A DNA stretch of 64,000 bases from Porticoccaceae bacterium (GCA_029248755.1 JAQWIR010000007.1:29166-93165); one strand, 5' to 3'; counted from the stretch's first letter, positions 56,895-62,757 are shown. Numbers and translations: made by a program. Notes: generated by a model not told the origin, from the sequence alone.

Positions 56895-57038
56895 GCGGTA
56901 AAATTTTCAGCCTCAGAGTCGATAAAATAACCTTAAGTTGCGATTAAAGCGTCGATATAACCCAAGATCGTATTGAATGCATATCAATACCGCACTAAGC
57001 TTATTACACAAAAAACTAATCTAATACTGGGGGTTCAC

Positions 57039-58262
57039 ATGGCAGGTTCAATGCCAAATGATTCATCAACTACATCGTCTGATGAGCAACAAAAAACACA
57101 GACATTTGCATTTATTGCAATGACATGTCTATTTTTCTTTTGGGGATTTATTACCGTACTGAATGATATTTTAATTCCCTTCCTCAAAGACTCCTTTGAC
57201 CTTAACTACACACAGGCAATGCTAGTTCAATTTTGCTTTTTTGGCGCATATTTTATTATTTCGCCATTCGCAGGAAAGTTAATTGACAAAGTTGGCTATC
57301 AGCAGGGAATTGTTCTCGGCTTGTTGACAACATCTATAGGCTGTTTTTTATTTTACCCATCAGCCGACCTTAATGTTTATGAGTTTTTCTTGTTTTCATT
57401 TTTTGTCCTAGCGAGTGGTGTCACTATTCTTCAGGTCGCGGCAAACCCCTATGTAGCTGCACTGGGCCCAGATAAAACTGCAGCTAGTCGACTTAATCTA
57501 GCCCAAGCGGCAAACTCATTAGGCACTACAGTAGGGCCTCTAGTAGGTGCTGCACTTATACTGGGTGTAGTAGCTGCAGATGCATCGGCAGTCCAGGGTC
57601 CATACATCATACTCGGTGTGTTGCTAGTGTTAGTTGCGATTATGTTCCGCTTTATCAAATTACCCAGAATCACCAGTGTAGAAACCGATGAGACTGCCAA
57701 TGATGAAAGCATTTGGGATCGTAGATCACTGGTACTTGGTGCCTTGGCTATCTTCTTATATGTGGGTGGAGAAGTATCTATCGGTAGTTTCTTGGTCAAT
57801 TACTTTGCTGAGAGTTCTATTGGTGGTTTAAGTCATGCTGAAGCCGGTGAAATGGTCGCCTATTACTGGGGTGCAGCAATGATTGGTCGCCTTGTTGGTG
57901 CTGCTGCAATGAACTACGTTGCACCTACCAAATATCTTTCAATAAACGCATTGATTGCAATCGTAATGATTATTGTAAGTATGAATACCACGGGTAGCAC
58001 TGCGATGTGGTCAATACTAGCGGTAGGGTTCTTTAATTCAATCATGTTCCCAACCATTTTTACCCTAGCCGTTAAAGGTCTTGGATCACTAACAAGTAAG
58101 GGATCTGGACTAGTATGTCAGGCTATAGTTGGCGGTGCATTGATACCCCTAATTCAGGGAGTAGCTGCAGACACTATAGGTATACAGTTAAGCTTTATAG
58201 TGCCGATGATGTGCTATATCTATATCGGTTGGTATGCGTTGAGAGGTGCAGATCAAGGCTAG
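57039..58262 (+). CDS. MFS sugar transporter, FucP/glucose-galactose family
   Basis: FFWGFITVLNDILIPFLKDSFDLNYTQAMLVQFCFFGAYFIISPFAGKLIDKVGYQQGI. Start set at ATG 57039, preceded by GGGGG SD. Confidence 0.93.
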   Translation: MAGSMPNDSSTTSSDEQQKTQTFAFIAMTCLFFFWGFITVLNDILIPFLKDSFDLNYTQAMLVQFCFFGAYFIISPFAGKLIDKVGYQQGIVLGLLTTSIGCFLFYPSADLNVYEFFLFSFFVLASGVTILQVAANPYVAALGPDKTAASRLNLAQAANSLGTTVGPLVGAALILGVVAADASAVQGPYIILGVLLVLVAIMFRFIKLPRITSVETDETANDESIWDRRSLVLGALAIFLYVGGEVSIGSFLVNYFAESSIGGLSHAEAGEMVAYYWGAAMIGRLVGAAAMNYVAPTKYLSINALIAIVMIIVSMNTTGSTAMWSILAVGFFNSIMFPTIFTLAVKGLGSLTSKGSGLVCQAIVGGALIPLIQGVAADTIGIQLSFIVPMMCYIYIGWYALRGADQG

Positions 58263-58287: not shown

Positions 58288-58320
58288 AAAAAAGCCTTAA
58301 TGATTTGTTAAGGCTTTTTT
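58288..58320. terminator. Intrinsic terminator after MFS transporter
   Basis: AAAAAAGCCTTAATGATTTGTTAAGGCTTTTTT. Confidence 0.92.
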
Positions 58321-58355: not shown

Positions 58356-58371
58356 TGTGACCCAGTTCACA
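58356..58371 (+). promoter_or_regulatory. Perfect CRP site, class II position relative to a TATAAT -10 box
   Basis: TGTGA-CCCAGT-TCACA centred at 58363.5; TATAAT at 58393-58398 gives +1 at 58405, i.e. -41.5. Confidence 0.8.
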
Positions 58372-58404
58372 TAATTAAAGAGTAGCTTTAGTTATAATTA
58401 CTAG

Positions 58405-58541
58405 CGGAAAGTAATGATAGCCTTGGGATTTCACCAAATTAATGGTGGGGAGTTCTTCTAAATAAAATACCTGTTTTCAGGGAATAAGAAGAGCAGTTCC
58501 AAGGCTGTTACTACCATTCCCCGCCACCATTAAATATTTTT
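58405..58541 (+). ncRNA. Putative CRP-activated structured RNA (small RNA or leader of GH3)
   Basis: No ORF; AGCCTTGG (58419-58426) pairs with CCAAGGCT (58499-58506) and extends imperfectly outward; enclosed hairpins CACCA/TGGTG and TCTTCT/AGAAGA capped by CCTG-TTTT-CAGG; T-rich 3' end. Confidence 0.6.
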
Positions 58542-58658
58542 ATTCCTGATCTAATTTATAGTTATTTTAAGCAATTCAACCTATTGCAAGTACAAGCTAT
58601 CGATTATAAATTGCCTACTAAGGCTAAATTTTGTATTTTCGTTCATCTTGTAGATAAA

Positions 58659-58686
58659 TTGTAAATAGCTACCCTTAATCTAAAAT
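58659..58686 (+). promoter_or_regulatory. Candidate sigma70 promoter of GH3 gene
   Basis: TTGTAA-N16-TAAAAT, about 20 nt upstream of the GH3 ATG. Confidence 0.35.
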
Positions 58687-58707
58687 TAAAATAGAGAATA
58701 AAATAAA

Positions 58708-61077
58708 ATGTTAAACAACAGTCTTAAATTACTAATAATCTCGATTTTAATGATAATAGGAGTCCCAGTGAGCGCTGAGTTGGATGAAAAAATCCTGTCA
58801 CAAAAAATTGAGCATCTAGTGTCAAAAATGACATTAGAGGAAAAAGCACTTCTCACTTCAGGAAGAGACGCATGGAGCACCCAGCCCATAGAGCGACTGG
58901 ATATACCCTACATTTGGATGGCTGATGGACCTCATGGTCTTCGTCGGGCACCAACAACAGATACATGGGGCTATGGCAATCAAGCACCAGCCACTTGCTT
59001 CCCTACAGCCTCAGCGTTATCAGCCTCATGGGATATGGAGTTACTACAAGAAGTAGGCGCCGCACTCGGCGTAGAGTCCAATGCATTAGGTGTAGATTTA
59101 TTACTAGGACCCGGTATTAACATTAAGCGCTCACCATTAGCTGGGCGAAATTTTGAATACTTCTCAGAAGACCCAATTCTCTCTGGAAAATTGGGTGCAG
59201 CCTACATTAATGGGGTGCAAAGTCAGGGTGTTGGAGCAACAGCCAAACACTATGTAGCCAATAATGTAGAAACAAAGCGCATGTGGGCAAACTCAAACGT
59301 AGACGAGCGCACATTAAATGAAATCTATATGACGCCATTTGAAATTGCCGTCAAAGAAGCCCAGCCATGGTCAGTTATGGCATGCTACAACAGAGTTCAG
59401 GGCACCTATGGTACAGAATCCCTAAGACTATTAACCGATAAGTTAAAAAATGAATGGGGCTTCAAAGGTTTTGTAGTATCAGATTGGGATGCCGTAGTTG
59501 ATCGTGTTCAAGGTATACGAGCGGGAATGCATTTAGAAATGCCCGGCAAGCCAGCCAGAATAACCAACAAAATGGTTGTTGATGCAGTCAAAAATAATGA
59601 ATTAGACGAGCAACAATTAGATTCAATTGTAAAAGACCTCCTACGTATCGTATTCATGGGCCAAAATGTTAATGATAAGCATGGCGATCAAAAGATTGAT
59701 CAACATCATCAGCTAGCACGCAAAGTTGCAGCAGAAGCTATCACGCTATTAAAAAATACCGAAAAATTGCTCCCAGTCGATGCATCCAAATATAAGAAAA
59801 TCGCAGTGCTCGGTGAGTTTGCAGTTAATCCACGCTATCAAGGCAATGGTAGTTCACAGGTTAAGCCCACCAAGCTAGATAAGTTGATGGATATTATTCG
59901 TCAAGAATATGGTCAAGATATTGAGATTGAATACTCAGCAGGTTATAGCCTAGCCAATGATGATGACCTCTCATTGGTAGAAGCAGCAGTAGCAGTAGCG
60001 GCCGATGCAGATCTAGCACTAGTTATGGCAGGACTGCCATTAAGTTATGAGTCAGAGGGTATTGATCGCACCCATATAGATCTGCCACCCTCTCACAACA
60101 AGCTAATTAGTGCCGTTGCCAAAGCTCAGCCAAATACAGCAGTAATCCTTACCAACGGAAGTGCCATCGCAATGCCTTGGGTTGACCAAGTTTCAGCAAT
60201 TCTTGAAACATGGCTAGGCGGCCAAGCAGGTGCAGGTGCAATCGTCGATGCCGTATTCGGTAAAGTAAACCCATCGGGTAAATTAGCTGAGACATTCCCA
60301 GTTCGTTTAGAGGACAGTCCAGCCTACTTAAATTTCCCCGGCGAAGACGGACAAGTAATTTATGGTGAACGCATGTTTGTCGGCTATAGGTACTACGATA
60401 AGCGCAATATAGAGCCATTATTTCCATTTGGCCACGGTTTATCCTACACCGAGTTTGGGTACAGTGATTTAAAACTATCCGCCACAGAACTAACTGACAA
60501 AGATAAACTAGAGGTTAGCCTAACAGTCACCAATACCGGTAAAGTAAAAGGTAAAGAAGTAATACAGCTTTATGTTGCCGATAAAGAGTCAACGGTTCAG
60601 CGGCCAGTGAAAGAACTAAAAGCCTTCGATAAAGTTGAACTAGAGCCAGGTGAAAGCAAAAGTGTTAACTTTACCCTAAATAAAAGAGACTTCTCCTACT
60701 ACAGTAAAGTCTATGATCGCTGGCTTGCGGAAAGTGGCGAATTTCAAATTTTAGTCGGTTCATCATCTCGCGATATCCGACTCAAGGGTAATTTAAACCT
60801 AAACAATACAGAAAAACTAAATTACACCATGACAATGTTTAGCTTTTTCTCAGAATTTTGGAGTAATCCACAACTTAAGCCCTTACTTATAGAGTTTATG
60901 CCAAACTGGATTAAAGCAATGACACCGGCAGGAAAACCAATTGAAGAAGCTAAAATTGAAGATTTTCTCCAACAACAACCCCTCATAAAATTCCCATACT
61001 TCACAGGTGGAGAAGTTGATGAGCAAAAAATTAAGGCATTTGTTGAGCAAATCAATCAGTTAACATTTAACCCATAA
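58708..61077 (+). CDS. bglX: GH3 beta-glucosidase, secreted
   Basis: Signal peptide; WMADGPHGLRRAP; KHYVANNVETKR; GFKGFVVSDWDAV (nucleophile D); C-terminal fibronectin-III-like FPFGHGLSYTEF. Confidence 0.95.
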   Translation: MLNNSLKLLIISILMIIGVPVSAELDEKILSQKIEHLVSKMTLEEKALLTSGRDAWSTQPIERLDIPYIWMADGPHGLRRAPTTDTWGYGNQAPATCFPTASALSASWDMELLQEVGAALGVESNALGVDLLLGPGINIKRSPLAGRNFEYFSEDPILSGKLGAAYINGVQSQGVGATAKHYVANNVETKRMWANSNVDERTLNEIYMTPFEIAVKEAQPWSVMACYNRVQGTYGTESLRLLTDKLKNEWGFKGFVVSDWDAVVDRVQGIRAGMHLEMPGKPARITNKMVVDAVKNNELDEQQLDSIVKDLLRIVFMGQNVNDKHGDQKIDQHHQLARKVAAEAITLLKNTEKLLPVDASKYKKIAVLGEFAVNPRYQGNGSSQVKPTKLDKLMDIIRQEYGQDIEIEYSAGYSLANDDDLSLVEAAVAVAADADLALVMAGLPLSYESEGIDRTHIDLPPSHNKLISAVAKAQPNTAVILTNGSAIAMPWVDQVSAILETWLGGQAGAGAIVDAVFGKVNPSGKLAETFPVRLEDSPAYLNFPGEDGQVIYGERMFVGYRYYDKRNIEPLFPFGHGLSYTEFGYSDLKLSATELTDKDKLEVSLTVTNTGKVKGKEVIQLYVADKESTVQRPVKELKAFDKVELEPGESKSVNFTLNKRDFSYYSKVYDRWLAESGEFQILVGSSSRDIRLKGNLNLNNTEKLNYTMTMFSFFSEFWSNPQLKPLLIEFMPNWIKAMTPAGKPIEEAKIEDFLQQQPLIKFPYFTGGEVDEQKIKAFVEQINQLTFNP

Positions 61078-61207
61078 AACTTGTGGCAACAATGTGCTTA
61101 ACAATCTCATTGTTGCCGCAAATATTCTGCTATTAATGTGCGCCTGGTTATAGAGCTATCTAAAACTTTTATCTTAATCCGAATAATTTTAAGAAATTTG
61201 CTAAAAC

Positions 61208-61223
61208 TGTGAACTGCATCACA
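61208..61223 (+). promoter_or_regulatory. Second perfect CRP site, class II position
   Basis: TGTGA-ACTGCA-TCACA centred at 61215.5; TATCTT at 61245-61250 is exactly where a -10 box must be for +1 = 61257 (-41.5). Confidence 0.75.
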
Positions 61224-61256
61224 CTTTCTAATTAAAATATGGTCTATCTTGAAAGA

Positions 61257-61345
61257 AGTACACAGTGTTTAGATTTGAACATTAATTCACAGTGAGTAGT
61301 AGCATTGCTTCCTGCTTTGATGCCCCTTTCGAGGGGCAAATTTTT
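61257..61345 (+). ncRNA. Putative ~89-nt CRP-activated small RNA
   Basis: Starts at the implied class II +1, no ORF, ends in TGCCCCT-TTCG-AGGGGCA-AATTTTT; the next gene is convergent, so no downstream CDS can be the target of this promoter. Confidence 0.65.
61321..61345 (+). terminator. Intrinsic terminator with UUCG loop
   Basis: 7-bp stem TGCCCCT/AGGGGCA, TTCG loop, then AATTTTT; oriented only for the + strand. Confidence 0.9.
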
Positions 61346-61390: not shown

Positions 61391-61798
61391 TTAGTGTTTG
61401 CTACAGTAATTCTCCCAGACTATTTCGCCTAGAAGATATTTTAATTTAGGAACTAACTTATCAATAGAAATGGATTTTACGAAATAACCACTAATATCAA
61501 GTTCTCTAGTACCATTGATAATCTCACTTTTCTCTGCAGACAAAACAACAATAGGGATGGGATTATTTTTTCCAGTAAGCTTCTCACGTTTTCTAACAAT
61601 TTTTATAAATTCAATTCCATCGACAATGGGCATACTTAAGTCGGTCAGAATTAAATCACAGTGACGAATAGTTAATAGTTCTAGAGCTTGTTGGCCATTT
61701 TCAGCGGGGATGCATTTAAGGCCATGTGATTCCAATGTGGCTACGATAATAGTTCGGCTCAATCGTTCATCTTCGACGACAAGAATCGTTCTTTTCAC
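61391..61798 (-). CDS. Receiver-only response regulator (CheY-like)
   Basis: ILVVEDERLSRTIIVATLESHG; phosphoacceptor in LILTDLSMPIVDG; GYFVKSISIDKL; no output domain. Confidence 0.93.
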   Translation of the reverse strand: MKRTILVVEDERLSRTIIVATLESHGLKCIPAENGQQALELLTIRHCDLILTDLSMPIVDGIEFIKIVRKREKLTGKNNPIPIVVLSAEKSEIINGTRELDISGYFVKSISIDKLVPKLKYLLGEIVWENYCSKH

Positions 61799-61853: not shown

Positions 61854-62237
61854 TTAGCTAATAATTTCAAGTAATTGCTTAATTTTTGGTACTAATTTAT
61901 CAATCGGTTCTTTCTTAATAAAGTATCCACTAATATTCAAAGCTACAGCGGAATCTATCATTTCACCTTCCTCCGCAGATAGCACAACGATAGGTACATC
62001 CTTATTAATTGCGAGCTGATTTTCACCACTTCGTATAGCTTTTATTAAATCTAATCCATTGAGAACTGGCATTCTTAAGTCAGTAAGAATTAAGCCGCAT
62101 TCTAGGGTACTCAACATTTTCAATGCCTCTCGACCATTTTCTGCAGAAATACAATGTAATCCATGAGCCTTCAAGGTAGCTAAGATAATAGTTCTACTGA
62201 GTTTCTCATCTTCAACAACAAGTATAGTTTTGTTCAT
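61854..62237 (-). CDS. Receiver-only response regulator, tandem paralogue
   Basis: ILVVEDEKLSRTIILATLKAHG; LILTDLRMPVLNG; GYFIKKEPIDKL. Start at MNKTIL (62237). Confidence 0.93.
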   Translation of the reverse strand: MNKTILVVEDEKLSRTIILATLKAHGLHCISAENGREALKMLSTLECGLILTDLRMPVLNGLDLIKAIRSGENQLAINKDVPIVVLSAEEGEMIDSAVALNISGYFIKKEPIDKLVPKIKQLLEIIS

Positions 62238-62757
62238 AAGCTTTGGGCATCCAGCCAGTATCAAATTAATAAGGCAACATATCTAGATTCAGCTCCACAT
62301 ATGCATCTCATGAGCGTAATTAAAGAGAGACTACAAAACATCATTGTCACAATTTTGATTGAGTAATTATAAGTTAGCCACACAAGTCATTAACCCACAG
62401 GCCACGCTCTTCTTGGAAGAATAGTCCAAAATAGACAGTGTTTTTTAAAGTATTGAACTTCTATGGAAATGTTTATAATGGGCCTGCTAGAAAGAACCGC
62501 GTATTAGGGATTTTGAATCCTGTTTAAACCCCCTTAAGTCCTACAAAATTACCTGAGATCCCTACAAAACTCCTTCAGCGAAAAGAGGGGGGGTAGCGAT
62601 CTTGTGATGGGGGTATTCACTATATGCGGTTTCATAGCGGTTAATACTCTTATCAATACCTTACCTGATATACCCTTAAATCAATGCTTACTGACGAAGT
62701 ATTGGTCTATTATTTGATTAATGTATAAATCTGTTTTGACTAAGGAAAGTCCTAAAT

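Follow-up and report, generated by a model that had tools for sequence, protein, structure and literature searches.

A predicted C4-like sRNA-Xcc1 RNA and a second short RNA, each with a CRP site, flank a GH3 glycoside hydrolase gene of a Porticoccaceae bacterium

Between a sugar transporter gene and a glycoside hydrolase gene of a Porticoccaceae bacterium, which we take to be a marine member of the SAR92 group, lies a short non-coding RNA (RNA1) that, judged by sequence comparison, is a divergent sRNA-Xcc1 RNA (RF02221) with the anatomy of a C4-like antisense RNA. The initial annotation of this DNA had treated RNA1 as an anonymous transcript and missed its kind. In the reading we consider probable, RNA1 is an orphan, host-kept C4-like sRNA-Xcc1 RNA that would be transcribed from a CRP class II promoter and act in trans, and a second RNA on the far side of the hydrolase gene (RNA2) is a separate RNA with its own CRP site.

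The window (the whole 64,000-nucleotide stretch that was analyzed) places RNA1 between the gene of an MFS sugar transporter of the GluP glucose/galactose subfamily (56973-58262, + strand; NCBIfam TIGR01272 gluP, 343 bits against a cut-off of 202.6; PF07690) and that of a GH3 beta-glucosidase-type glycoside hydrolase (58708-61077, + strand; PF00933, PF01915 and PF14310). The nearest solved chains of the hydrolase are beta-glucosidases, and its closest named relatives come from MAGs labelled Cellvibrionales UBA7375, Porticoccaceae and SAR92 clade. A terminator-like hairpin follows the transporter gene (58288-58320, + strand; inverted repeat AAAAAAGCCTTAATG...TTAAGGCTTTTTT, by inspection), with a similar repeat visible in the related genomes G283, G008 and G005, and a further inverted repeat 3' of the GH3 gene (61085-61117, + strand; GGCAACAATG...CATTGTTGCC, by inspection) is the likely transcript end. 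Two adjacent single-domain receiver proteins are encoded immediately 3' of RNA2 (61391-61798 and 61854-62264, - strand), one of which is also present in G283, at a contig end.

Two copies of the exact palindrome TGTGANNNNNNTCACA are present in the window, at 58356-58371 (CRP site 1, TGTGACCCAGTTCACA) and 61208-61223 (CRP site 2, TGTGAACTGCATCACA), compared to a mean of 0.03 in 100 dinucleotide-preserving shuffles of the window, none of which contained two. This bears out the initial annotation, which had described just two TGTGA-N6-TCACA palindromes, both intergenic and both flanking one sugar gene, i.e., the GH3 gene in between. A -10-like hexamer lies 21 bp 3' of each palindrome, TATAAT (58393-58398) for site 1 and TATCTT (61245-61250) for site 2. 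The earlier claim that both sites sit at -41.5 fits this spacing within the window, and for RNA1 the spacing extends to three genomes, but for RNA2 it is not conserved, as TATCTT is replaced by TAAACC in G283.

The genome carries what is, by similarity, a true CRP: its crp gene (NCBIfam CRP equivalog, 268.8 bits against a cut-off of 266; gene order trpC-crp-osmC-like) encodes a protein 52% identical to E. coli CRP. Of the crp and cya genes on which the initial annotation had made its CRP reading depend, crp is thus present, as is a class III cyclase-like gene (class III cyclase domain), whereas a class I cyclase was not found in the 1.65 Mb assembly, which is 89% complete. Five exact CRP palindromes were counted in this same assembly and none of the reversed control pattern. 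The window pair is intergenic as first described; two of the five, near-identical sequences at contig ends, seem to fall within a single coding region, and the fifth is intergenic on contig C32 (L052:1969-1984), ~250 bp upstream of a gene for a 312-aa protein, with a tRNA gene on its other flank. Perfect CRP sites are hence rare and mostly intergenic, and they are not confined to RNA promoters. A perfect palindrome in G286, whose spacer matches that of G283, was considered as an RNA1 locus and rejected as lying within a protein-coding stretch.

An Rfam scan of the window at gathering scores returned a tRNA alone. In a sensitive Rfam scan (471-base search), RNA1 matched RF02221 with 38.8 bits (E 2.2e-5), which is under the gathering score of 53 bits, a threshold that is a curation value; a model made from outside relatives tests membership more sharply. 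To avoid circularity, a covariance model (R3) was built from 16 sequences outside the two clades to which RNA1 and its closest relatives belong (types A and B, see below); as the R3 alignment was made with an earlier model (R1), its independence lies in the sequences and not in the alignment step. R3 identified 58444-58533 (+ strand) with 60.1 bits (E 5.9e-14) as its sole match in the 64-kb window. The core is predicted to form a three-helix junction composed of P1 (58444-58452/58517-58525), P2 (58453-58459/58487-58493) with an inner hairpin (58470-58481), and P3 (58494-58507), all on the + strand. Across 34 distinct sequences, 94% of the pairs in this junction are standard and double changes occur in 23 of 24 pairs; none of 500 shuffles reached the observed covariation, and slid controls were only 43-51% paired. 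RNA1 shares with sRNA-Xcc1 the three-helix junction, the P1 closing stem, a core of about 88 nt, and the conserved AAUACAAnACC...GGGAAUA internal loop; unlike sRNA-Xcc1, it occupies a host locus between sugar genes, with a CRP promoter and without an antirepressor or SymE gene. An HDV-like, self-cleaving interpretation of the nested helices was given up once the Xcc1 match had been found.

sRNA-Xcc1 was described in Xanthomonas campestris (PMC2996969), where it is reportedly dependent on HrpG/HrpX (Chen et al. 2011), and it occurs with symE in integron cassettes (PMC12444791); a 2025 integron paper left the relation between sRNA-Xcc1 and symE open. Within the order, relatives of RNA1 are mostly found immediately 5' of a start codon, and the tested next genes encode Phage_pRha, Bro-N, AntA, KilA-N or SymE proteins. 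The P3 loop of these relatives is complementary both to the region just 5' of the next start codon and to a copy that precedes the RNA. Matches of at least 7 nt were scored in 33 non-redundant genomic loci, using mismatched pairs as control: an upstream match was present in 21/33 loci (11% in mismatched pairs) and a downstream match in 18/33 (5%), and the observed mean for the upstream box was reached by none of about 2000 permutations. The same complementarity was recovered in an independent set of 57 non-redundant IMG/VR viral loci picked by an exact core pattern, with 88% upstream (12% in the mismatched control) and 72% downstream (7%), and 0 of 1000 permutations reached the observed mean for either box. 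More widely, at least 120 IMG/VR contig stretches (L178-L257) contain the exact sRNA-Xcc1 core, many before antirepressor-like genes, and covariation between the loop and the ribosome-binding box is seen in such viral stretches.

Complementarity between loop and boxes in two data sets indicates that the family works in the manner of C4, the antisense RNA of phage P1. In C4, loops a' and b' face target boxes that cover the ribosome-binding site of the antirepressor gene, and RNase P processes the RNA at the GG that forms the 5' end of P1 (PMC5320573); its mode of action and processing are taken here from the literature (PMC5320573, PMC12197685), and Weinberg et al. 2010 listed c4-a1b1 as a separate motif (PMC2864571). 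C4 of P1/P7 and the sRNA-Xcc1 family are alike in having a loop complementary to the antirepressor ribosome-binding region and a second copy of the target upstream, as well as a 5' end at P1 with a GG start and an NCC following P1, as would suit RNase P. The a1b1 copy of C4 likewise lies upstream of the RNA. RNA1 itself carries the upstream a1/b1-like copy and lacks the downstream box at a ribosome-binding region. In sequence the two differ: neither RNA1 nor the family member L022 was matched by the C4 model (RF01695), even at E 10, so the likeness in mechanism is supported and common descent is not.

The -10 box of RNA1 (TATAAT, + strand) predicts a start near 58405, which would place CRP site 1 at -41.5, the class II position. 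In G000 (the genome of the window), G014 and G283, both CRP half-sites and TATAAT are invariant and at a fixed distance, with 21 bp between TCACA and the -10 box, while the six spacer bases vary (GCTAGT in G014, TCTGGG in G283). No perfect CRP palindrome was present upstream of any of the 57 viral relatives or of the scanned genome relatives outside type A, and no CRP site was seen in the inspected upstream stretches of type B, suggesting that the CRP promoter is specific to type A.

Downstream of the predicted start, a putative target mimic analogous to a1/b1 of C4 (upstream box, 58410-58428, + strand) pairs with 58497-58512 and flanking bases, forming a predicted duplex of -29 kcal/mol. Its exact core with the loop is 7-8 nt in the three type A genomes, and 8 nt in RNA1. 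The opposing segment (58497-58512, + strand), consisting of the P3 loop and the following joint, corresponds to a'/b' of C4, and its equivalent in relatives is complementary to the ribosome-binding region of the gene that follows; for RNA1, no downstream box for the P3 loop was found, the longest match being 4 nt. In types A and B, P1 begins with GG (GGU in RNA1). In RNA1 it is directly followed, as read from the alignment, by ACCA (58526-58529, + strand), the kind of tRNA-like 3' signal that RNase P substrates would be expected to carry; 26 of the 32 distinct rows have NCC after P1. Both features are compatible with 5' processing of RNA1 by RNase P. Pairing of the linker (between upstream box and P1) with the 5' strand of P1 exceeded permutations across the family, but the effect was very small and was not used.

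When the full-length RNA1 was folded in silico, a closed structure in which the antisense segment is covered (-46.5 kcal/mol) was favored over the junction fold (-29.3 kcal/mol), and the closed fold was likewise favored in G283 and in type B. RNA1 is therefore proposed to be a two-state RNA that would be released by RNase P or by refolding. A search of three genomes for trans targets of the RNA1 loop returned self-matches and scattered sites, none of them at a ribosome-binding site or start codon. The proposal of the initial annotation that the two RNAs form a catabolite-responsive circuit attached to glucan or glucose use fared less well than its description of the sites: since no target tying either RNA1 or RNA2 to glucan use was found, such a circuit is something that we can only infer.

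Among 245 genomes of the order, the sRNA-Xcc1 family was detected in 22, and a model from close sequences searched in 50 genomes of the genus found it in eight. Two types could be distinguished. Type A, the copy between the GluP and GH3 genes, is found in G000, G014 and G283, and type B, a copy between proB and bioB with an upstream box, in seven genomes of the genus. The genome of the window harbors both, its second copy on contig C42 (L033, G000:C42:21481-21572, - strand) being an orphan sRNA-Xcc1-type RNA that by reading-frame inspection lies between proB and bioB, without a CRP site and without an antirepressor or SymE gene. Type B has kept the upstream box, in different letters (CACAAG/CTTGTG), and has no downstream box; as box and loop letters both differ from type A, pairing has been kept while the sequence changed. 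The linker between box and P1 is common to both types (GGATTTCACC/GGATTCACC), which suggests that one type derives from the other. G281 contains two near-identical sRNA-Xcc1 copies (L060 on C70 and L063 on C79) before a SymE-like reading frame, likely the mobile form.

Within type A, the 90-nt RNA1 core shows two differences between G000 and G014, with diverged flanks. The gene order transporter-RNA1-GH3-RNA2, which the initial annotation had singled out for comparison across relatives, recurs in G283 and is patchy elsewhere: G008 and G005 keep transporter and GH3 without RNA1, and G014 is missing RNA2 beside GH3. RNA1 is absent from G005, and in the transporter-GH3 gap of G008 (L096, G008:C13) a 14-nt piece of it, TAAAATACCTGTTT, is present that was not reproduced by shuffles, suggesting that RNA1 was lost there.

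RNA2 (61251-61345, + strand, about 90-95 nt) was delimited by a terminator scan and by words conserved in G283. It contains TCACAGTGA (61287-61295), a core ATTGCTTCCTGC (61304-61315) that by inspection resembles an anti-Shine-Dalgarno seed, and a strong intrinsic terminator (61321-61345), all on the + strand. At the same place in G283, the 12-nt ATTGCTTCCTGC and TCACAGTGA are invariant; besides G283, nothing above about 15 bits was found among the 50 genomes of the genus, and RNA2 has no credible match in Rfam. Where other genomes of the genus gave DNA matches to the 3' end of RNA2, these proved to be similar terminators after protein genes and were not counted as RNA2. The view that the window holds two compact non-coding units that are unlike each other has held. 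RNA2 resembles the enterobacterial CRP-controlled sRNAs CyaR and Spot 42 in being a short RNA with a CRP site, an anti-Shine-Dalgarno-like core and an intrinsic terminator, and differs from them in sequence, which is unrelated as far as compared.

How CRP would act on RNA2 is less clear than for RNA1. The candidate core promoter TATGGTCTATCTT (61238-61250, + strand) offers two -10 boxes, TATGGT (61238-61243) and the TATCTT of the initial annotation, so the promoter spacing is uncertain. CRP site 2 carries one change in G283 (TGTGAACTGCATCACC) and has degenerated in G008, in which no RNA2 was found. The promoter word TATGGTCTA, conserved in G000, G283 and G008, is closer to the CRP site, by 7 bp, than the -10 box first proposed, and activation of RNA2 is consequently uncertain. 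If TATGGT is used, 14 bp after CRP site 2, the site would be near -34.5, over the promoter, and CRP would repress RNA2, giving RNA1 and RNA2 opposite responses to cAMP. We regard this as quite possible, though short of an even chance: TATGGTCTA keeps its place in all three genomes, and G283 retains TATGGT while it has lost TATCTT, but TATGGT agrees with the consensus at just 4/6 positions, and TATCTT has class II spacing in G000 and also survives in G008. Repression would concern RNA2 alone and is compatible with the explanation favored for RNA1.

For RNA1, the main competing account makes it the leader of the GH3 message, with the CRP promoter driving GH3 and the Xcc1-type RNA being a cis element that is processed off or controls translation. 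RNA1 and GH3 do share a strand, with about 175 nt from the core to the GH3 start, and no conserved intrinsic terminator was found between them, so that the CRP promoter might also serve GH3; moreover, relatives adjoin the gene they control on its upstream side, and RNA and target share a transcript in phages. This account nevertheless appears unlikely, as RNA1 is not followed by a box complementary to its P3 loop (beyond the 4-nt match noted above), its distance to the start codon far exceeds that of relatives, and GH3's own region (ATCGATTATAAATTGCC onward) is recognizable in five genomes, including G005 and G008, which lack RNA1. That RNA1 and the proB-bioB copy are instead decaying, now functionless remnants of a lost mobile element, whether transcribed or not, with the CRP site serving something else, would fit the loss of the target gene, the patchy presence and the mere fragment in G008. 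It is very improbable given that the 90-nt core is nearly unchanged between G000 and G014 despite diverged flanks, that the upstream box pairs with the loop in both types through different sequences, that seven genomes keep the proB-bioB copy, and that the half-sites of CRP site 1 are preserved around a drifting spacer.

Following the explanation of RNA1 as an orphan, trans-acting C4-like RNA, the family would operate as follows. RNase P probably frees the three-helix RNA at the 5' end of P1, and the P3 loop with the following joint would pair with the ribosome-binding region of a gene for an antirepressor or SymE. The RNA1 locus has lost this target gene and retains just the upstream copy, and it has gained a promoter with a CRP site. 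CRP would activate transcription of RNA1 from this class II promoter, and RNA1 should accordingly be made at high cAMP. The full-length RNA would first fold closed, its upstream target mimic covering the antisense segment, and processing or refolding would then set the antisense form free to act on messages from other loci. RNA2 would be a further short RNA, not related to RNA1, that combines a CRP site with an anti-Shine-Dalgarno-like core.

For phage-type antisense RNAs that persist in a bacterial chromosome there is a precedent in the Group 1 C4-like sRNAs of Acinetobacter baumannii, whose retargeting to host messages has been proposed (PMC5320573); they are like RNA1 in this respect, and differ from it in that the part of that study considered here describes no CRP promoter or link to a sugar locus. 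More tentatively, we put forward the speculative possibility that a SAR92-type bacterium has co-opted a phage-type antisense RNA, descended from silencers of antirepressor and SymE genes, as a CRP-controlled, trans-acting two-state RNA at a locus for sugar uptake and glucan digestion, silenced by its own target mimic until released by RNase P or refolding. This agrees with all results obtained here. Overall, the mobile copies with SymE, the orphan between proB and bioB and the copy with a CRP promoter form a chain of evidence leading from a phage immunity RNA to a possible host regulator. For sRNA-Xcc1, a widespread RNA whose mode of action is unsettled, the covariation of loop, ribosome-binding box and upstream copy provides a testable C4-like mechanism.
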